Origin: Jannaschia pagri
Lineage (GTDB): Bacteria; Pseudomonadota; Alphaproteobacteria; Rhodobacterales; Rhodobacteraceae
Direction of reading: 5' to 3'
NCBI RefSeq assembly: GCF_019655435.1
Contig: NZ_BPFH01000005.1
Coordinates: forward strand, 1-64,000
DNA: 64,000 bases
Shown: piece after piece, positions 42,045 through 51,214 of the stretch
Layout: each line of letters starts with the position of its first letter
Numbering within the stretch: position 1 is the stretch's first letter
The notes under the pieces: model-generated
The model's database searches: none
Seen by the model: the letters and a program-made list of their open reading frames with translations, nothing else
What the model was told of the DNA's origin: nothing
Program-made: the position numbers and the translations under genes

Positions 42045-43823
42045 ATGAAGATGACCACCGAAGAAGCCTTCGTCAAAACACTCCAGGCACATGGCATTCG
42101 CCACGCCTTTGGGATCATCGGATCGGCCATGATGCCGATTTCCGACATTTTCCCGGCCGCGGGCATCACGTTCTGGGATTGCGCCCACGAAGGCTCTGCC
42201 GGGTTCATGGCCGATGGCTACACCCGCGCCACCGGCGAGATGTCCATGATGATCGCCCAGAACGGCCCCGGCATCACGAACTTCGTGACCGCCGTCAAAA
42301 CCGCCTACTGGAACCACACGCCCTGCTTGCTGGTGACGCCCCAGGCCGCCAACAAGACCATCGGTCAGGGTGGCTTCCAGGAAATGGAACAGATGAACCT
42401 GTTCGCCGACTGCGTGGCCTATCAGGAAGAAGTCCGCGACCCCACACGGATCGCCGAAGTCCTCACCCGCGTGATCGCCAAGGCCCACCGCCTGTCCGGC
42501 CCGGCCCAGATCAACATCCCGCGCGACTTCTGGACCCAGGTCGTCGACATCGAAATCCCCGAGCCCATCGTGTTCGAAGCCTCCCCCGGCGGTGAAAACT
42601 CGGTCGCCAAGGCTGCTGAGCTGATCTCCAACGCCAAAAACCCGGTCATCCTAAACGGTGCCGGCGTGGTCCTCTCCGAAGGGGGCATCGCCGCCTCCAT
42701 GGCCCTTGCCGAAAAGCTCGATGCGCCTGTTTGCGTAGGCTACCAGCACAATGACGCCTTCCCAGGCAGCCACCCGCTGTTTGCTGGTCCGCTGGGCTAC
42801 AACGGCTCCAAGGCCGGGATGCAGCTGATCTCCGAGGCCGACGTGGTCGTCTGCCTGGGCACGCGCCTGAACCCCTTCTCGACCCTGCCCGGCTACGGCA
42901 TCAACTACTGGCCGACGGATGCGAAGATCATCCAGGTGGACATCAACCCCGACCGCATCGGCCTGACCAAGAAGGTCACCGTGGGCATCGTTGGCGACGC
43001 CGCCAAGGTTGCCACCGGCATCCTGAACGCGCTGGCCGATGACGCAGGCGACGCCGGTCGTGAGGAGCGTAAGGCGAAGATCGCGCAGACGAAATCCGCC
43101 TGGGCGCAGGAACTGTCCTCCCTCGACCACGAGCAGGACGATCCCGGCACCACCTGGAACGAGCGTGCCCGCGCCGCGCGTCCCGACTGGATGTCTCCGC
43201 GTAAAGCATGGCGCGCCATCCAGCAGGCCCTGCCCCGCGAGGCGATCATCTCCTCGGACATCGGCAACAACTGCGCCATCGGCAACGCCTATCCGGACTT
43301 CGACGAAGGCCGGAAGTACCTGGCCCCCGGCCTCTTCGGTCCCTGCGGCTACGGCCTGCCCTCGATCGTGGGCGCCAAGATCGGCCAGCCCAACGTTCCG
43401 GTCGTCGGTTTTGCCGGTGACGGTGCCTTCGGGATCGCGGTGAACGAGTTGACGGCCATCGGTCGCGGCGAATGGCCCGCCATCACGCAGATCGTCTTCC
43501 GCAACTATCAGTGGGGCGCGGAAAAGCGGAACTCCACCCTGTGGTTCGACGACAACTTCGTCGGCACCGAGCTGGACATGCAGGTCTCCTACGCGGGCAT
43601 CGCCCAGGCCTGTGGCCTGATCGGCGTCCAAGCCAAGACCCAGGAAGAGCTGACGGCCATGCTCAACCAGGCGATCAAAGATCAGATGGAAAACAACAAA
43701 ACCACGCTGATCGAGGTCATCCTGAACCAGGAGCTGGGCGAGCCCTTCCGCCGCGACGCCATGAAGAAGCCGGTCCGCGTGGCGGGCATCTCCAAGGACG
43801 ACATGAACGTCGCCGCCGAGTAA
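42045..43823 (+). CDS. xsc: Sulfoacetaldehyde acetyltransferase
   Basis: 592 residues. A thiamine-diphosphate enzyme that cleaves sulfoacetaldehyde with phosphate to acetyl phosphate and sulfite, the committed desulfonation step. The N-terminal domain has HGIRHAFGIIGSAMMPISD and the conserved HEGSAGFMADGYTRATGEM (ThDP-activating Glu). The C-terminal ThDP motif is FAGDGAFGIAVNELTAIG with the Asn in FRNYQWGAEKRN, an Xsc hallmark. AGGGGAGGAG lies before the ATG. Codon use is strongly biased to C-ending codons compared with neighbours, suggesting high expression. It is followed by a hairpin and pta. Confidence 0.96.
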   Translation: MKMTTEEAFVKTLQAHGIRHAFGIIGSAMMPISDIFPAAGITFWDCAHEGSAGFMADGYTRATGEMSMMIAQNGPGITNFVTAVKTAYWNHTPCLLVTPQAANKTIGQGGFQEMEQMNLFADCVAYQEEVRDPTRIAEVLTRVIAKAHRLSGPAQINIPRDFWTQVVDIEIPEPIVFEASPGGENSVAKAAELISNAKNPVILNGAGVVLSEGGIAASMALAEKLDAPVCVGYQHNDAFPGSHPLFAGPLGYNGSKAGMQLISEADVVVCLGTRLNPFSTLPGYGINYWPTDAKIIQVDINPDRIGLTKKVTVGIVGDAAKVATGILNALADDAGDAGREERKAKIAQTKSAWAQELSSLDHEQDDPGTTWNERARAARPDWMSPRKAWRAIQQALPREAIISSDIGNNCAIGNAYPDFDEGRKYLAPGLFGPCGYGLPSIVGAKIGQPNVPVVGFAGDGAFGIAVNELTAIGRGEWPAITQIVFRNYQWGAEKRNSTLWFDDNFVGTELDMQVSYAGIAQACGLIGVQAKTQEELTAMLNQAIKDQMENNKTTLIEVILNQELGEPFRRDAMKKPVRVAGISKDDMNVAAE

Positions 43824-43873: not shown

Positions 43874-43919
43874 CCCGGCCTCTGACGGCTTGAACGACCC
43901 AGCCCTCCCGGAGGTTTCC

Positions 43920-44891
43920 ATGTCCCCGCTGACCGCCCTACGTGACCGCGCCAAGGCTGCCCGTCATCACATCGTCCTGCCCGAGGGCACCGATCCTCGC
44001 GTGCAAGAGGCCGCCGCCCGCGCGACCTCCGAAGGGCTCGCTCGGATCACGCTTCTGGCACCCGAAGGCACGGCCATGCCGGACGGCGTAACGGGCGAAG
44101 ACCCAACGAAGAGCGCCCGCAGGGACGCGATGAGTGCGGCCTTCTTGCGGGCCCGCGCCAAGAAATCGCCAACCCAAGATCAGGCCGACGCTGCGATTAA
44201 CGACCCGCTGACCTGGGCTGCGCTCATGGTGCGGGAAGGTCTGGCCGATGGCACTATCGGCGGCGCCGTTGCCACCACATCGGACACGGTGCGCGCCGCG
44301 CTTCAGATGATCAGCACGGCCCCAAGCGCCCCGATGGTCAGCAGCTTTTTCCTGATGGTCCTGCCCGACAGCCACCCGACCCGACCCGGCCAGGGTCTGA
44401 TCTTTTCGGACTGCGGCTTGGTGATCGAGCCATCGGCCACAGAGTTGGCCGCCATCGCCGCGCAGGCCACCGCCTCCGCCGCAGCCCTCCTACCAGAGCC
44501 GCCAAAGACAGCCATGCTCAGCTTTTCAACCATGGGCAGCGCCAAGCATAGCAACGTGAACAAAGTCACCGAAGCCCTTGAAATCGCACGTACCAATGGC
44601 CTGACCGACATTGACGGAGAGCTTCAGTTCGATGCGGCCTTCGACAGCAGCGTGGGGGCAAAGAAAGCCCCAAGCAGCGGTGTGGCCGGTCAGGCCAATG
44701 TCATGGTCTTTCCGAACCTTGATGCCGGGAACATCGGGTACAAGATTGCCCAACGGATCGGCGGCGCCACCGCCATCGGCCCGGTGCTGCAAGGGCTTGC
44801 CAAACCGGCCAATGACCTGTCGCGGGGCTGCACGGCCGACGACATCATCGACATGATCGCCGTGACCTCGGCGCAGATCGACGCCCTATGA
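43920..44891 (+). CDS. pta: Phosphate acetyltransferase
   Basis: 323 residues from ATG 43920, with GGAGG upstream; the open frame begins ten codons earlier. Converts the acetyl phosphate made by Xsc to acetyl-CoA. It is the short PTA_PTB catalytic domain only, lacking the N-terminal DRTGG/BioD-like part of enterobacterial Pta. HHIVLPEGTDPRVQEAA and VMVFPNLDAGNIGYKIAQRIGGATAIGPVLQGL are family signatures. Its stop overlaps the following exporter gene (ATGA). Confidence 0.93.
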   Translation: MSPLTALRDRAKAARHHIVLPEGTDPRVQEAAARATSEGLARITLLAPEGTAMPDGVTGEDPTKSARRDAMSAAFLRARAKKSPTQDQADAAINDPLTWAALMVREGLADGTIGGAVATTSDTVRAALQMISTAPSAPMVSSFFLMVLPDSHPTRPGQGLIFSDCGLVIEPSATELAAIAAQATASAAALLPEPPKTAMLSFSTMGSAKHSNVNKVTEALEIARTNGLTDIDGELQFDAAFDSSVGAKKAPSSGVAGQANVMVFPNLDAGNIGYKIAQRIGGATAIGPVLQGLAKPANDLSRGCTADDIIDMIAVTSAQIDAL

Positions 44892-45904
44892 TCGCGGCCC
44901 TGTCCCCCGACGCCCTCCGAGGTCAGATCAGCACCCTGGGCCCTGGAGTTCTCGTGGCGGTTATCGTGGCCGTCGCCGCGCAGTTCCTCGCCTCTCACTA
45001 CGACACACCCGCCATGCTCTTGGCGCTGCTCCTGGGGATTGCCCTGTCCTTCCTGGGGACTGAGGGGAAAACCCCCGCTGGTATCGCCTATTCCGCCCGT
45101 ACGTTGCTGCGCTTGGGCGTAGCACTTCTGGGCGTTCGGATCTCGTTTGGAATGCTCGCGGGGCTTGGGGCGCCGCTCATCCTGTTGGTGGTCGGGGGCG
45201 TTGTCGCGACGATTGGCTTCGGCATGGCGTTTGGGCGCTTCTTTGGGCACAAATGGCGCTTCTCGTTGCTGACCGCGGGGTCGGTCGCCATCTGTGGCGC
45301 GTCAGCCGCCATGGCCATCAGTGCGATCCTGCCCAAGGATGAACGGTCGGAGGAGCGGCTGATCTTCACCGTCATGGGCGTCACCGTCCTGTCGACGGTT
45401 GCGATGATCGCTTACCCGATCCTCGTCCGTTCATTGGGTCTGAATGACGTCCAAGGGGGCGTCTTCCTGGGCGGGACGATCCACGACGTGGCCCAGGTGG
45501 TGGGTGCAGGGTATTCCGTGTCGGAGCCGACGGGTGACACGGCGACTTTGGTAAAGCTGATGCGCGTTGCGATGCTGGCCCCAGTGGTGCTCATCGCGTC
45601 GCTGGCCATTCGCCGCTGGGCCGAGCCGGACCCCGACGGCAGCCGCCCGCCACTTTTGCCAGGATTTGTCATTGCGTTTCTGGTGCTCGCTGCGCTCAAC
45701 TCATTTGGGATTATTCCCACCGTTGTCGCGACCTTTGCCAGCGATGCATCGCGGTGGTTGCTGCTGACCGCCATCGCCGCGGTTGGCATGAAGACAGACT
45801 TGCGATCCGTGATGTCGGTTGGAGGAGCCGCCATCGCGCTGATCATACTCGAAACGCTGTTTATCGCAGCCATAACGCTCGCCGGGATCACGCTATTGAC
45901 CTGA
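44888..45904 (+). CDS. YeiH-family (UPF0324) membrane protein, putative sulfite/sulfate exporter
   Basis: 338 residues with about ten hydrophobic helices. YSARTLLRLGVALLGVRISFGML, AGSVAICGASAAMAISAILP, GGTIHDVAQVVGAG and LTAIAAVGMKTDL are UPF0324 signatures. Proteins of this family in taurine and other sulfonate clusters of relatives are proposed to export the sulfite or sulfate released by Xsc. Overlap with pta by 4 nt and position before soeABC support that role, but transport has not been shown by anything in the sequence. Confidence 0.82.
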   Translation: MIAALSPDALRGQISTLGPGVLVAVIVAVAAQFLASHYDTPAMLLALLLGIALSFLGTEGKTPAGIAYSARTLLRLGVALLGVRISFGMLAGLGAPLILLVVGGVVATIGFGMAFGRFFGHKWRFSLLTAGSVAICGASAAMAISAILPKDERSEERLIFTVMGVTVLSTVAMIAYPILVRSLGLNDVQGGVFLGGTIHDVAQVVGAGYSVSEPTGDTATLVKLMRVAMLAPVVLIASLAIRRWAEPDPDGSRPPLLPGFVIAFLVLAALNSFGIIPTVVATFASDASRWLLLTAIAAVGMKTDLRSVMSVGGAAIALIILETLFIAAITLAGITLLT

Positions 45905-45932: not shown

Positions 45933-48764
45933 ATGACCATCCAGCAACCGATAGTGGACCTTTCGCCCAAGGTCGGCGACGAGGTCCGCAAGACCACCTG
46001 CTACATGTGCGCGTGCCGCTGTGGCATTGACGTCCACGTCAAGAAAACGCCCGACGGCGAAAAGATCGCCTACATCGAGGGGAACCGCGATCATCCGGTG
46101 AACCAAGGGGTCCTCTGCGCCAAGGGCAGCGCGGGCATTATGCAGCACAACGCGCCCTCTCGGCTCAAGGCCCCGATGAAGCGCGTGGGCGAGCGCGGTG
46201 AAGGCAAGTTCGAAGAAATCTCCTGGGAGGAAGCCTACGACATCGCCGCCTCGTGGCTGGAGCCGATCCGCAAGACCGACCCCTCCAAACTCGCCTTCTT
46301 CACGGGCCGCGACCAATCCCAAAGCTTCACCTCCTGGTGGGCCCAGGCCTTCGGCACGCCCAACTACGCGGCCCACGGCGGCTTCTGCTCGGTCAACATG
46401 GCGGCGGGCGGCATCTATACCATGGGCGGCGCGTTCTGGGAGTTCGGCCAGCCCGATTGGGAACGCACCAAGCTGTTCATCCTGTTTGGCGTGGCCGAGG
46501 ATCACGACAGCAACCCCATCAAGATGGGCATCGGCAAGATGAAGGGCCACGGGGGGCGCGTCGTGGGCGTGAACCCCATCCGCTCCGGCTACAACGCTGT
46601 GGCCGACGATTGGTTCGGCGTTACACCCGGCACCGACGGCCTGTTGATCCTGTCCCTGGTCCACTGCCTGCTAAAGGCGGGCAAGATCGACCTGGAATAC
46701 CTCCGCGACTTCACCGACGCGCCCGTCCTGATCGACGCCGACCCCGCCTCGCCCACCCATGGCCTCGCGCTGGTCGACGACGACGGGCACAAGCTGGTCT
46801 GGGACAAGACCGAGAACCGCCCCCGCTGCTACGACGCCGAGGACGTGGACATCGACCTGACCGGGACGTGGGAGCGGGACGGCATCACCCATCGCACCGT
46901 CTTTGCCCATATGGTCGACAAGTACCTCGACGCCCAATACGCGCCCGAGGCCGTGGCCGAACGCGTCGGCATTGAGGCGGGCCGCATCCGGGCTCTGGCC
47001 GCTGAGATCGCCCGCGTTGCCTTCGAGGAAGCCATTGAGCTGGACCACGAATGGACCGATTTCCGGGGTCGCACCCACAAGACGATGAAGGGCCGCCCTG
47101 TCAGTTTCCACGCCATGCGCGGGATCTCTGCCCATGCCAATGGTTTCCAGACCTGCCGCGCGCTGCACATGCTGCAAATCCTGATCGGTGCGGTCGAAAC
47201 GCCCGGCGGCTTCCGCTTCAAGCCGCCCTACCCCAAACCCGCGACGATCCACCCCAAGCCCCATTGCAAGGTCACCCCCGGCGCGCCGCTGGATGGCCCG
47301 CATCTGGGCTTCACCCACGGGCCGGACGATCTGTGCCTCAAGGACGATGGCACCCCTGCTCGCATCGACAAGGCCTATACCTGGGAAAACCCCATGAGCA
47401 GCCATGGCATGATGCACATGGTGATTTCCAATGCCCACGCCGGCGATCCGTATAAGATCGACACGCTGTTCCTCTATATGGCGAACATGGCGTGGAACTC
47501 GTCCATGAACACGTCCGGCACCATGAAGATGCTGTCCGATAAGGACGAGAACGGCGACTACGTCATCCCGCATATCATCTACTCGGACGCCTATTCGTCA
47601 GAGATGGTCGCCTATGCGGATCTGATCCTGCCCGACACGACCTATTTGGAACGGCACGACTGCATCTCCCTGCTAGACCGCCCCATCTGTGAGGCCGAGG
47701 CCGCTGCCGACGCCATCCGCTGGCCCGTGGTCGAGCCGGATCGCAACGTGAAAGGCTTCCAAACGGCGCTGATCGAGTTGGGCGCCAAGATGGGTCTGCC
47801 CGGCTTCGTGAAGGACGACGGCAGCCCCAAGTTCAAGGACTACGCCGACTACATCACCAACCACGAACGCCGTCCCGGCGTCGGCCCGCTGATGGGCTGG
47901 CGGGGCAACGGTGAGGAAACGGGCCGCGGGGCGGTGAACCCGCAGCAGTTGGACCGCTATATCGAGAACGGCGGCTTCGCCATCGCGCACATTCCCGAGA
48001 ACGCGCAGTTCTACAAACCCTGGAACATGGCCTATCAGGACTGGGCGGTAGAGATCGGGCTATTCGACAAAGCCGCGCCCTATCTGTTCACCCTGTGGTG
48101 CGAACCGCTCCGCCGCTTCCAACTGGCCGCCGAAGGTCACGGAGAGCGTCAGCCCCCCGACCATCTGCGCGCCCGCATCAAGACGACCATGGACCCGCTG
48201 CCCATCTGGTGGGACGCAACCAAGGAGCATGACGGCGACGGCGCCTATACGGTGACCGCGCTGACCCAGCGGCCCATGGCCATGTACCACTCCTGGGGCA
48301 CCCAGAATGCGTGGCTGCGTCAGATCCACGGGATGAACCCGCTCTATGTGCCCACCAAGATCTGGCAGGCCGAGGGCTTCGCCGAAGGCGATTGGGCCAA
48401 GGTCAGCAGCCCCCATGGCGAAATCACCGTGCCTGTCGCCCATATGCCCGCGCTCAACGAGAATACGGTCTGGACCTGGAACGCCATTGGCAAGCGCAAG
48501 GGCGCCTGGGCGCTAAAGGACAATGCGCCCGAGGTGACCAAGGGTTTCCTACTGAATCACCTGATCCACGAATTGATGCCGCCCAAAGCGGACGGCATGC
48601 GGTGGTCAAACTCTGATCCGATTACGGGTCAGGCGGCTTGGTTCGACCTAAAGGTCAAGATCGAGAAGACCGCCGCGCCCGCCGATGGGCAGGCGCGACC
48701 GAATACCGGATCTCAGGCCAGCCCAGTCGGGACAGGGCCGGACGCCTTGGCGTGGGAGGTCTGA
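45933..48764 (+). CDS. soeA: Sulfite dehydrogenase molybdopterin subunit (SoeA)
   Basis: 943 residues, GGGGAGG before the ATG. A DMSO-reductase-family molybdenum protein. The N-terminal [4Fe-4S] motif is CYMCACRCG with the fourth cysteine in GVLCAKG. Molybdopterin-binding stretches include LFILFGVAEDHDSNP and MRGISAHANGFQTCRALHMLQILIG is near the active site. There is no Tat signal, placing it on the cytoplasmic side, as for SoeABC. Mo-enzymes of this family also include formate dehydrogenase and tetrathionate or polysulfide reductases; the taurine/Xsc context selects sulfite oxidation. The 3' 52 nt overlap an antisense gene. Confidence 0.87.
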   Translation: MTIQQPIVDLSPKVGDEVRKTTCYMCACRCGIDVHVKKTPDGEKIAYIEGNRDHPVNQGVLCAKGSAGIMQHNAPSRLKAPMKRVGERGEGKFEEISWEEAYDIAASWLEPIRKTDPSKLAFFTGRDQSQSFTSWWAQAFGTPNYAAHGGFCSVNMAAGGIYTMGGAFWEFGQPDWERTKLFILFGVAEDHDSNPIKMGIGKMKGHGGRVVGVNPIRSGYNAVADDWFGVTPGTDGLLILSLVHCLLKAGKIDLEYLRDFTDAPVLIDADPASPTHGLALVDDDGHKLVWDKTENRPRCYDAEDVDIDLTGTWERDGITHRTVFAHMVDKYLDAQYAPEAVAERVGIEAGRIRALAAEIARVAFEEAIELDHEWTDFRGRTHKTMKGRPVSFHAMRGISAHANGFQTCRALHMLQILIGAVETPGGFRFKPPYPKPATIHPKPHCKVTPGAPLDGPHLGFTHGPDDLCLKDDGTPARIDKAYTWENPMSSHGMMHMVISNAHAGDPYKIDTLFLYMANMAWNSSMNTSGTMKMLSDKDENGDYVIPHIIYSDAYSSEMVAYADLILPDTTYLERHDCISLLDRPICEAEAAADAIRWPVVEPDRNVKGFQTALIELGAKMGLPGFVKDDGSPKFKDYADYITNHERRPGVGPLMGWRGNGEETGRGAVNPQQLDRYIENGGFAIAHIPENAQFYKPWNMAYQDWAVEIGLFDKAAPYLFTLWCEPLRRFQLAAEGHGERQPPDHLRARIKTTMDPLPIWWDATKEHDGDGAYTVTALTQRPMAMYHSWGTQNAWLRQIHGMNPLYVPTKIWQAEGFAEGDWAKVSSPHGEITVPVAHMPALNENTVWTWNAIGKRKGAWALKDNAPEVTKGFLLNHLIHELMPPKADGMRWSNSDPITGQAAWFDLKVKIEKTAAPADGQARPNTGSQASPVGTGPDALAWEV

Positions 48765-49420
48765 GCGTGCCGACGACCCACCCCAACGAGCCCCGCGAAG
48801 GCTGCCAACATCATCAAGACAGATGCAGGCAAAGGCACGGCGGCAACGGTAAAGGAATCAAATCCGACCGTTTCCGAAACGCCGACCCAGCTTTCGGTCC
48901 CAACCTCGAACGAGGTCACATTGGCCAGCACGGATTGAAATACGGACTCGGATGTGCCGAACTCCGCAGCCGAGAGGGTCAAGGCGCCAGCGTACCAACC
49001 GTCGGCGTTGAACCCACTGATTGCCTTGCCAGAAATCGCATTGGACCCGCTGCGGAGCGTAACCTCGCCGAAGTTCCGGGTTGCGTACCGGCCACGTCCG
49101 TTGTCGCCGAGATGGCCGAGCATGAACGAAATCTCCGAGCCAGACATGGCGCTCAGATCCCCGGTCAGCGCTTGGGGGCCGACCAAATACATGTAGTTGC
49201 CGCTGCGGTCCTTGATCGAGGCATAACCATCCCCGGACGGACCGCCGTCCACGCGGGTGACGGAGTTCCTGGGGGTGTTGTTCCGCTTTTTGTAGTTGTC
49301 CCGCACCGACCAGCCGCCAAGCCCGGTGTCGAACGTCTCTTGATAGTGGATCGTCGCCGCCGAGGCAGCGCTCGCCAGCCCAAGGCCGATTGCGGCCGCT
49401 CCAATAATAACCTTAGCCAT
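48713..49420 (-). CDS. VPLPA-CTERM secreted/surface protein inserted between soeA and soeB
   Basis: 235 residues from ATG 49420. The N-terminal signal peptide is MAKVIIGAAAIGLGLASAASA, with cleavage near ASA-ATI. The mature part is a beta-rich, lectin-like domain (YQETFDTGLGGWSVRDNY). The C-terminus has the exosortase-type sorting signal VPLPASVLMMLAAFAGLVGVG followed by RRH. Normally such proteins stop a few residues after the basic cluster. Here 16 to 18 further residues run across the soeA 3' end on the opposite strand. It is unrelated in theme to the sulfite genes around it. The exosortase is not in the window. Confidence 0.8.
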   Translation of the reverse strand: MAKVIIGAAAIGLGLASAASAATIHYQETFDTGLGGWSVRDNYKKRNNTPRNSVTRVDGGPSGDGYASIKDRSGNYMYLVGPQALTGDLSAMSGSEISFMLGHLGDNGRGRYATRNFGEVTLRSGSNAISGKAISGFNADGWYAGALTLSAAEFGTSESVFQSVLANVTSFEVGTESWVGVSETVGFDSFTVAAVPLPASVLMMLAAFAGLVGVGRRHAQTSHAKASGPVPTGLA

Positions 49421-49512
49421 AATTACAGAACCCGTCCGTTTCGTTGGGCTTCTGATGTGACAGCGAATTCAGGAGTATTTGCGCCAAATCCGGGATACTT
49501 CGGGGGGAAACT

Positions 49513-50274
49513 ATGACCGCTTTGCCTAAATCTACCGACAAAAAGCTGGGTCTTGTCATCGACTTGGACACCTGCGTGGGCTGCCACGCCTGCGTCACCG
49601 CGTGTAAGGGCTGGAACACCCAGAACTACGGCGCACCGCTCTCGGACATGGACCCCTATGGCAAGCCCGAAGGGACCTTTCTAAACCGCATCCATGCCTT
49701 CCAAAGCCAGCCGGAAACGGGCCTGGCCCAAACGACCCACTTCCCCAAATCCTGCCTCCATTGCGACGACGCGCCCTGCGTCACCGTCTGCCCGACGGGC
49801 GCCAGCTACAAGCGGGCCGAAGACGGTATCGTCTTGGTGAACGAGGACGCCTGCATGGGCTGCGGCCTCTGTGCCTGGGCCTGCCCCTATGGCGCGCGGG
49901 AAATTGATCAGGCTCAGGGGGTTATGAAGAAATGCACCCTCTGTGTGGACCGGATTTATAACGAGAACCTGCCGGAGGTTGATCGCCAACCGGCCTGTGT
50001 CCGCACCTGTCCTGCAGGCGCTCGGCACTTTGGGGATCTGGCCGACCCCACGTCGGATGTCTCGATCCTCGTGGCCGAACGCGGCGGGATGGATCTGATG
50101 CCGGAGCAAGGCACGGCGCCGGTCAACAAGTACTTGCCGCCGCGCCCCAAGGATCAGATCCAGGCCCCCGTCATGGGCGGCGACGAAGACATCCTGGCCC
50201 CCTACCTCGCCCCCGTCGCCGAAGAGCCCAAGGGCCTGCTGGCCTGGGTCGACCGTGCTCTGGAGAAACTCTGA
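49513..50274 (+). CDS. soeB: Sulfite dehydrogenase iron-sulfur subunit (SoeB)
   Basis: 253 residues, preceded by GGGGGG. Four ferredoxin-type [4Fe-4S] clusters carry electrons from SoeA to SoeC: CVGCHACVTACKGW, CLHCDDAPCVTVCP, CMGCGLCAWACPYG, and CTLC with CVRTCPAGARHFGD. This is the DmsB/PhsB/NrfC-type electron-transfer subunit. It is separated from soeA by 748 bp holding an antisense gene, so it must be transcribed from the divergent 92 bp promoter region or through that gene. It ends sharing one nucleotide with soeC. Confidence 0.88.
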   Translation: MTALPKSTDKKLGLVIDLDTCVGCHACVTACKGWNTQNYGAPLSDMDPYGKPEGTFLNRIHAFQSQPETGLAQTTHFPKSCLHCDDAPCVTVCPTGASYKRAEDGIVLVNEDACMGCGLCAWACPYGAREIDQAQGVMKKCTLCVDRIYNENLPEVDRQPACVRTCPAGARHFGDLADPTSDVSILVAERGGMDLMPEQGTAPVNKYLPPRPKDQIQAPVMGGDEDILAPYLAPVAEEPKGLLAWVDRALEKL

Positions 50275-51161
50275 TGCATCCCGCACCCTCCGTCATCATC
50301 TTCTCATCACTCTCGGGCGCGGGTTTCGGCCTGTTGTTTTTCCTCGGCCTTGGGATGCCTGCGCCCAGCGGGTGGGTCGCCTTCGTCTTCTACGTCATTG
50401 CCTATGCGCTTGCCGTGGGGGGACTGCTATCAGCCTTCTTCCACCTGGCGAACCCAAAGAATGCTGTGAAATCCTACAGTCAGTGGCGCACCTCCTGGCT
50501 CTCGCGCGAGGCCTGGGCCGCCGTGGCCGCCCTGGTCGTCATGGGCCTCTATGCCTTTGGTCAGGTCTTCCTAGGGACGACTTGGACAGCGCTCGGCTGG
50601 CTCGGCGCGGCGCTCAGCATCGGGACTGTGTTCACGACGTCTATGATCTATGCCCAGCTGAAGACAATCCCCCGCTGGAACCAACTGCCCGCAACGCCCC
50701 TGATGTTTCTGTCGTGCAGCCTCGCTGGGGGGGCACTCCTGTCGGGCAACGTGACGCTGGCCGTGGTCCTCCTGCTGGTAGCGGGCGGCGTGACCCTTTG
50801 GCATTGGTCAGCGGGCGACACGCGCTTTGCGGAGGCTGGTTCGACGCTGAACACCGCGACGGGGCTGAAGGGCAAGATGGGCCTTTGGGAAAAGCCGCAT
50901 ACGGGCGAAAACTACCTCACCCGAGAAATGGTGTATCAGGTCGCGCGCAAACATGCGGTCAAGCTGCGGGTGATCGCCATTGCCTTGATGTCGCTGCTGC
51001 CTGCTTTGCTGATCTTGGTTTTACCGACGCATATCGGCGCGGTGCTTGCAGTGATCTCCCATATCGCTGGGATCCTGACACAACGCTGGCTATTCTTTGC
51101 GGAAGCGGAGCACGTGGTCGGCCTCTACTACGGGGCCCACTTGGGAAAGGCCGCCGCTTAA
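50274..51161 (+). CDS. soeC: Sulfite dehydrogenase membrane anchor (SoeC, DmsC-like)
   Basis: 295 residues with about eight hydrophobic helices. The N-terminus is HPAPSVIIFSSLSGAGFGLL, SAFFHLANPKNAVKSYSQWR and TSWLSREA are typical of the DmsC/NrfD-like quinone-reducing anchor, and EHVVGLYYGAH closes it. Passes electrons from SoeB to the quinone pool. Its start shares one base with the soeB stop (TGATG). Two strong hairpins follow the stop codon. Confidence 0.87.
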   Translation: MHPAPSVIIFSSLSGAGFGLLFFLGLGMPAPSGWVAFVFYVIAYALAVGGLLSAFFHLANPKNAVKSYSQWRTSWLSREAWAAVAALVVMGLYAFGQVFLGTTWTALGWLGAALSIGTVFTTSMIYAQLKTIPRWNQLPATPLMFLSCSLAGGALLSGNVTLAVVLLLVAGGVTLWHWSAGDTRFAEAGSTLNTATGLKGKMGLWEKPHTGENYLTREMVYQVARKHAVKLRVIAIALMSLLPALLILVLPTHIGAVLAVISHIAGILTQRWLFFAEAEHVVGLYYGAHLGKAAA

Positions 51162-51170
51162 CGCGAGCGT

Positions 51171-51214
51171 CGTCTCCGGGTGACCGGAGACGGATCGCGG
51201 GGTGACCCGCGATC
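51171..51214 (+). terminator. Two tandem hairpins with GUGA loops after soeC
   Basis: CGTCTCCGG-GTGA-CCGGAGACG (51171-51192) directly followed by GATCGCGGG-GTGA-CCCGCGATC (51193-51214). Both are perfect 9 bp stems, and on the plus strand both loops are GUGA, a member of the very stable GNRA tetraloop class. No T-run follows. They start 10 nt after the soeC stop codon and overlap the last codon of the convergent carboxypeptidase gene, so they may terminate or stabilise transcripts from either side. Confidence 0.7.

Follow-up and report, generated by a model that had tools for sequence, protein, structure and literature searches.

When two genes of one enzyme have an opposite-strand gene between them, the question arises of whether the operon around it has been broken or is still read as a unit. 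Such a layout was found in a window of 64,000 nucleotides (nt), the whole stretch of DNA analysed here, which covers positions 1 to 64,000 of contig NZ_BPFH01000005.1 in the genome of the marine bacterium Jannaschia pagri (3.91 Mb, 99.97% complete). There, soeA (45933..48764, plus strand), coding for the putative molybdopterin catalytic subunit of 943 amino acids (aa), is separated by 748 nt from soeB (49513..50274, plus strand; 4Fe-4S subunit, 253 aa), which has base 50274 in common with soeC (50274..51161, plus strand; DmsC-type membrane anchor, 295 aa). Between soeA and soeB lies an antisense gene (48713..49420, minus strand) for a VPLPA-CTERM surface protein (235 aa; possibly containing a distant Laminin_B-like domain), and this gene overlaps the 3' end of soeA by 52 nt. 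An earlier note on this DNA had described the 748 bp gap, the opposite-strand gene and the single base shared by soeB and soeC, and its coordinates were borne out.

An open frame between soeA and soeB

The strand facing the antisense gene was found to carry an open reading frame (ORF) of its own (48767..49516, plus strand), which starts at a GTG 2 nt past the soeA stop, is codon-aligned with the antisense gene and ends at the TGA within the ATGA (49513..49516, plus strand) where its stop overlaps the soeB start. A GGAGG (48755..48759, plus strand), 7 nt upstream of the GTG at 48767, resembles a Shine-Dalgarno sequence and may act as one. The same arrangement was present at the only two loci with a strong homologue of the antisense gene, L153 and L154, whose soeA-soeB gaps are 883 and 898 nt long. 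All three gaps are 1 mod 3 in length, and no stop interrupts the sense frame between the end of soeA and the start of soeB in 3/3 of them, each time in the phase that ends in ATGA (the ATGA phase); at L153 and L154 an ATGA is found at both ends of the frame. Since the frame is codon-aligned with the antisense gene, its stops can only come from antisense TCA, TTA or CTA codons, and the three antisense genes, with 86 serine and 56 leucine codons, contain none of these. When synonymous codons were resampled from neighbouring genes (a hand list) and the flanks were shuffled, the chance of any frame being open was 0.0131 for the window, 0.0087 for L153 and 0.0019 for L154. Empirically, 6/86 genes of 200-270 aa had an opposite-strand frame without stops across the gene and 100 nt on each side. 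The absence of stops on the strand facing the antisense gene suggests that ribosomes would still be able to pass from soeA to soeB.

The two strands differ in what they conserve. Between L153 and L154, 71, 43 and 141 differences were counted at the first, second and third antisense codon positions, respectively, over 223 codons, and the identity was 62% for the antisense product vs. 33% for the product of the sense frame. From this pattern and these identities it follows that the antisense strand encodes a conserved protein, the sense strand keeping its openness alone.

The three antisense loci prompted a test of ordinary soeA-soeB spacers, which was then run as a prediction. The set comprised 99 loci, namely 80 sampled by soeB similarity (the best 80 of the 365 found, 13 of them from Jannaschia) plus 19 from congeners, the two sets overlapping and some loci coming from the same genome; 80 of the 99 had spacers of 30-270 nt, of which 69 were distinct. 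The ATGA phase was open in 67/69 distinct spacers, compared to 38 for the frame of soeB itself and 31 for the third phase, with 21.9 expected after shuffling. Including the last codon, which shares the first base of soeB, 66/69 remained open, as L044 then fails as well. Taking one spacer per sequence cluster, the counts were 28/30 vs. 15 and 21 (11.9 expected), and among Jannaschia spacers they were 16/16 vs. 11 and 10 (7.2 expected). Moreover, an ATG overlapping the soeA stop in the ATGA phase was present in 51/69 spacers, and a spanning ORF was found in 82/88 loci with a gap of at least 30 nt, long inserts counted. The gap length was 1 mod 3 in 67/79 distinct loci with gaps of at least 10 nt, and in 18/18 of those from Jannaschia. 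Control same-strand gene pairs from the same DNA, for which genes were called as greedy ORFs, had the ATGA phase open in 34/81 cases (28.9 expected) and a gap of 1 mod 3 in 41/108. Judging from these sequences, the usual link of soeA to soeB is an open frame whose end is the ATGA on soeB.

What fills this frame varies. The spacer peptides of Jannaschia and others are species-variable, with no visible family likeness, and the frame is still open; the spacers of L029, L033, L039 and L048 hold a gene bounded by ATGA on either side and about 187-282 residues long, and the genes inserted in other lineages were named by eye as alpha/beta hydrolase, DUF2199-like and LysE-like. Thus, as far as the spacer sequences tell, it is the open frame that is constant across them, not a protein.

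Some spacers showed further features. A small protein of 48-69 residues with a single transmembrane segment and the core SFIWFIATWD was found between soeA and soeB in 22/99 loci by motif search (L019, L024, L025, L027, L036-L038, L040, L042, L047, L049, L050, L054, L055, L059, L060, L069, L070, L072, L074, L076 and L079), and proteins at L023 and L067 resemble it by eye. No good match was obtained in Pfam for the four members scanned or in NCBIfam for the three scanned; a possible identity is an unrecognised fourth SoeABC subunit or an assembly factor. At L085 (3683-4504), a spanning ORF in the ATGA phase shares sequence with a gene in a different sense frame that is akin by eye to the insert of L033, and this ORF is perhaps another bridge held open across an out-of-phase gene. 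Finally, the spacers of L006, L012 and L099, all from Jannaschia, have the stretch GTGCGCCCAGTGAYGTCA in common, possibly a short conserved peptide or a regulatory element.

The antisense gene and its recurrence

The antisense ORF is, on the evidence of its VPLPA-CTERM motif, gene-like codon usage and homologues, a real gene. Its protein scored 31.5 bits with TIGR03370 against an NCBIfam cut-off of 25.35, and the motif itself was placed at 48767..48838 (minus strand) with 35.7 bits, above the cut-off. The codon-usage score was 0.19 bits per codon for the minus strand vs. -0.15 for the opposite plus frame, the means being 0.28 for 34 window ORFs and 0.10 for their codon-aligned opposite frames; the ORFs of this reference set were picked greedily, and at least one of them is spurious (50255-51205 in place of soeC). 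A likely signal peptide (MAKVIIGAAAIGLGLASAASA; 49358..49420, minus strand) was judged by eye from the translation. Furthermore, a putative Laminin_B-like region (48851..49204, minus strand) was delimited with hhalign, in which the ectodomain profile, built with the two homologues, matched the Laminin_B domain of two RTX proteins with a probability of 97.6 and an E value of 4.5e-12 over 115 columns, both profiles being shallow (3 and 4 rows). The Pfam Laminin_B model did not match the window protein at E<=1, and it scored 16.6 and 16.1 bits on the proteins of L153 and L154, below its cut-off of 22.4. The ectodomain gave only chance-level matches to solved structures (best E 0.17), and a single-sequence AlphaFold model, with a predicted local distance difference test score of 40.8, was too poor and was not used. 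The content of guanine and cytosine (GC) of the antisense gene does not stand out strikingly from that of its neighbours. An origin from a mobile element was considered and rejected, as the flanking direct and inverted repeats did not go beyond chance-like matches and searches of plasmids, phages and viral contigs gave no relative.

All 20 genomes of the genus have soeB, and the gap before it, 748 nt in the window, ranges from -4 to 262 nt in the other 19, which leaves no room for the antisense gene at this site in any of these congeners. It was also absent from the 80 nearest soeB loci examined, where 72 gaps were <=262 nt and 8 were 559-992 nt, the genes read in those eight being on the same strand. 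Searches with the whole protein returned only the query in 295 genomes of the family (E<=1e-6) and in 385 of the class (E<=1e-5), and the query plus weak partial matches in the 20 genomes of the genus (E<=0.01). With the ectodomain, nine matches at E<=0.01 were obtained in 394 family genomes, three of them below 1e-11: the window's own, L153 (genome G694, E 1.2e-16) and L154 (G738, E 1.4e-12), the last two from two other genera. These three matches cover nearly the whole ectodomain, and all of them (3/3) sit antisense between soeA and soeB; the gene is therefore rare, yet tied to the soeA-soeB junction among its close homologues. Of the six weak matches (L155 to L160), L155, L156 and L159 were inspected; L155 and L156 are RTX proteins with Laminin_B, and L159 had no soe gene among the ORFs listed. 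The earlier note had proposed to compare soeA-soeB spacing in relatives, with the same layout in most of them speaking against its view; most relatives lack the layout, whereas it is not unique to the window, given L153 and L154.

In a tree of SoeA and SoeB, the closest relative of the window is G308 (support of 98 in the Shimodaira-Hasegawa-like approximate likelihood ratio test), which has no antisense gene; with the other 18 congeners also lacking it, either a gain on the branch of the window or repeated loss is needed. The terminal branch of the window measures 0.16, compared to 0.046 in its sister G308. A recombination tract from a donor like G694 or G738 was sought in the flanks and discarded, since none appeared in 80-column windows of SoeA, SoeB and SoeC. 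Relaxed selection on SoeABC was likewise dismissed, as the mean identities of the three proteins rank in the middle of 14 Jannaschia rows, with no excess divergence.

The window gene differs from its homologues at its end. As the earlier note had pointed out, about 16 codons past the natural end lie over soeA coding sequence, and they were found to be an extra C-terminal tail of 16 residues (QTSHAKASGPVPTGLA) plus the stop (48713..48763, minus strand; antisense of the soeA 3' end). From the V of VPLPA to the C-terminus there are 41 residues in the window protein vs. 24-32 in 28 other VPLPA proteins (28 of 35 loci, seven being unread by the script, with a second, spurious pattern match in L090 dropped); the motif is consequently not near the C-terminus, where VPLPA-CTERM proteins usually have it. 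Had the window protein ended at the end of soeA, this distance would be 25 residues. The homologues stop in the usual range: L153 ends in ..GRRQRA, 25 residues from the V and 95 nt short of the soeA stop, and L154 in ..RRRIVKG, 26 residues from it and 116 nt short. The comparison supports a fusion in which the window gene lost its stop and reads 16 codons into soeA, and the proposed cause is a deletion that took out spacer and stop. The claim of the earlier note that a recent insertion or deletion had fused this gene to soeA thus stands as regards the fusion, while a one-off recent insertion does not agree with the same site being occupied in two other genera. A tblastn match to the VPLPA query at L100 was set aside, being the window tail on the antisense of the soeA end, with no VPLPA gene there.

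Should the C-terminal signal be cleaved as usual, the tail would do no harm, yet no exosortase was found in the J. pagri genome, either with PF09721 (none at E<=0.1) or with TIGR04178 (none at E<=10). This genome has three VPLPA-CTERM proteins above the cut-off (C1:423425, C4:368853 and C5:48767). Among 149 family genomes, 53 were positive for VPLPA, of which 15 lacked PF09721, and TIGR04178 added no exosortase in those 15; some of them (G032, G106, G128 and G134) hold 12-20 VPLPA proteins. A different sorting enzyme, or another use of the VPLPA motif, is possible in the exosortase-negative genomes. In the same 149 genomes, VPLPA-CTERM proteins accompanied a high-scoring type of exosortase (E up to 1.1e-60) in 34/35 cases, and a low-scoring type alone in 4/15, showing no association.

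A proposed translated bridge and its alternatives

On balance, and with some reserve, the antisense gene appears to be tolerated inside a translated bridge, in the manner of a noncontiguous operon, with soeB and soeC still coupled to soeA. At ordinary loci, the ORF that begins at the soeA stop or beside it and closes with the ATGA of soeB would carry ribosomes over the spacer. In the window, ribosomes ending soeA would restart at the GTG at 48767, translate the bridge and restart at soeB via the ATGA, and the soeABC message, presumably one transcript, would be translated through the region facing the VPLPA gene. Such translation could keep Rho off the message, guarding against Rho-dependent polarity, and could deliver ribosomes to soeB, tying the synthesis of the subunits together. 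The VPLPA gene would have a promoter and a transcript of its own, and a later deletion in the lineage of the window would have removed spacer and antisense stop, adding the 16 codons over soeA. A reason for a bridge may lie in the short reach of coupling: as passages of PMC10666635 report, coupling by reinitiation in native gene pairs is almost gone at a spacing of about 20 nt, and overlaps are over-represented among the genes for subunits of a heteromeric complex. With more doubt, selection at the soeA-soeB junction may keep the frame and the absence of stops, not the protein sequence, and the serine and leucine codons of the antisense genes may avoid TCA, TTA and CTA for the sake of coupling; survival of compatible inserts could be the cause as well.

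Several observations weigh against this account. Only three antisense loci are available, L153 and L154 are related, so that the three probabilities are not fully independent, and these were computed after the pattern had been noticed. The window bridge starts at GTG, without an ATG overlapping the soeA stop. A spanning ORF is missing in 6/88 loci with a gap of at least 30 nt (some genomes counted twice), which makes the bridge not obligatory; the control pairs exceed expectation in the third phase (39/81 vs. 28.3), and the soe spacers do so in the other two phases as well. Reporter work cited in the same passages of PMC10666635 found coupling to fall only about 1.4-fold per 100 nt, and the bridge would then be less needed. 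Moreover, open opposite frames are common in GC-rich genomes: counting the gene alone, the codon-aligned opposite frame was open in 7/27 other VPLPA-CTERM genes and in 84/342 stretches of 236 codons, and any opposite frame in 26/86 genes. These counts speak for the alternative that GC-rich codon usage leaves the sense frame open as a by-product, with an acquired VPLPA gene and a weak promoter of soeBC's own in 49421-49512. A consensus scan of 48500-49700, a weak test, gave neither a sigma-70-like promoter nor a terminator, which counts against such a promoter; alphaproteobacterial promoters can evade scans of this kind. Against a by-product, the frame is open in 3/3 cases including both flanks, always in the ATGA phase, vs. 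6/86 for gene plus flanks, and this phase is conserved in ordinary soeA-soeB spacers and not in other gene pairs. We regard this alternative as possible, if unlikely.

The earlier note had argued that the subunits would be transcribed separately, and a recent insertion that broke the operon, with antisense transcription lowering soeA, would fit the absence of the gene from 19/19 congeners and the tail fused to soeA. However, two other genera have the same gene at this site, the 748 nt retain the 1 mod 3 spacing, and nothing in the mean identities of SoeA, SoeB and SoeC hints at relaxed constraint. A broken operon is thus decidedly improbable, and the preserved sense frame points to continued coupling. 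Dual coding, in which the sense ORF would be a functional protein gene overlapped by the VPLPA gene, has in its favour an ATGA-to-ATGA architecture like that of the real genes inserted in other roseobacters; it is hardly credible, given that most changes between L153 and L154 fall on sense first positions, with the sense product the less conserved, and that the codon score of the sense frame (-0.154) lies under the 0.099 mean of codon-aligned opposite frames. Finally, the layout might be a regulated noncontiguous operon in which the VPLPA and soeABC transcripts repress each other through RNase III and polymerase collision, as in the menE-menC operon of Staphylococcus aureus, and this repression, not the bridge, would be what selection maintains. 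The topology matches that described in PMC7154746, and the layout recurs in three genera, but 19 congeners manage without the antisense gene and mutual repression alone would not account for the frame conserved in antisense-free spacers, which leaves it rather improbable.

If the translated bridge is true, then an operon whose soeA-soeB gaps are often longer than 20 nt would stay coupled through a link that keeps its frame and is free in sequence, and this would explain which inserted genes the operon tolerates, besides restricting, in a hidden way, the codons that antisense genes can use. Unannotated translated ORFs, detectable genome-wide by gap length modulo 3 alone, would be a further prediction. 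The bridge would also be a warning that an antisense gene within an operon need not mean a broken operon.

Neighbouring genes and known systems

The order from 5' to 3' is xsc (42045-43823), pta (43890-44891), a gene for a yeiH-like exporter (44888-45904) and soeA, all on the plus strand, followed by the antisense gene and by soeB and soeC. The exporter gene adjoins soeA upstream, its score being under the cut-off of its model; a yeiH-like gene between pta and soeA was also seen at L011 (1/13 named Jannaschia loci) and in G738. In 9/11 named Jannaschia loci with pta in reach, pta is within about 30 nt of soeA, and at L006 the distance is about 750 nt and no yeiH was matched. The naming of SoeABC is based on family matches (Pfam Molybdopterin and Molybdop_Fe4S4 for the soeA product, a 4Fe-4S family match for that of soeB, and Pfam DmsC for that of soeC, with 25.7 bits and a cut-off of 22.3) and on xsc and pta upstream; no curated SoeA model was among the family-model matches for the soeA product, whose identity to 13 Jannaschia SoeA proteins is 82-88%. 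Molybdenum, 4Fe-4S and DmsC-type subunits are found in this order with a sulfite-producing pathway nearby, which we take to be the defining features of this family of sulfite-oxidising enzymes.

The antisense product resembles VPLPA-CTERM (TIGR03370) proteins in its C-terminal motif above the cut-off and its signal-peptide-like start, and differs from them in the 16-residue tail past the usual end and in a genome without a detected exosortase. Its possible likeness to Laminin_B (domain IV) lies in the profile-profile match over 115 columns, whereas Pfam gives no match at E<=1 for it and scores under the cut-off for L153 and L154. A bridge ORF over an antisense gene was not found described in the portions covered of the literature on noncontiguous operons, translational coupling, antisense overlap and soeABC, nor does the coupling review PMC12548453 use the words 'bridge' or 'intervening' in its main text. 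The noncontiguous operon menE-menC-MW1733-ytkD-MW1731 of Staphylococcus aureus (Saenz-Lahoya 2019; passages of PMC7154746) has, as here, a gene on the other strand amid the genes of a functional operon; the Jannaschia sense strand differs in carrying an ORF that runs across the antisense gene in phase with the following cistron. Termination-reinitiation coupling, as treated in passages of PMC10666635 and PMC12548453, is resembled in the ATGA at soeB, in the subunits of a heteromeric complex and in starts adjoining an upstream stop, the spacing at both junctions being of this kind (ATGA at 49513-49516 and a GTG 2 nt past the soeA stop). The soe link differs from coupling via ATGA in that it would be a frame of 250-300 codons, with no conserved protein, running opposite another gene.

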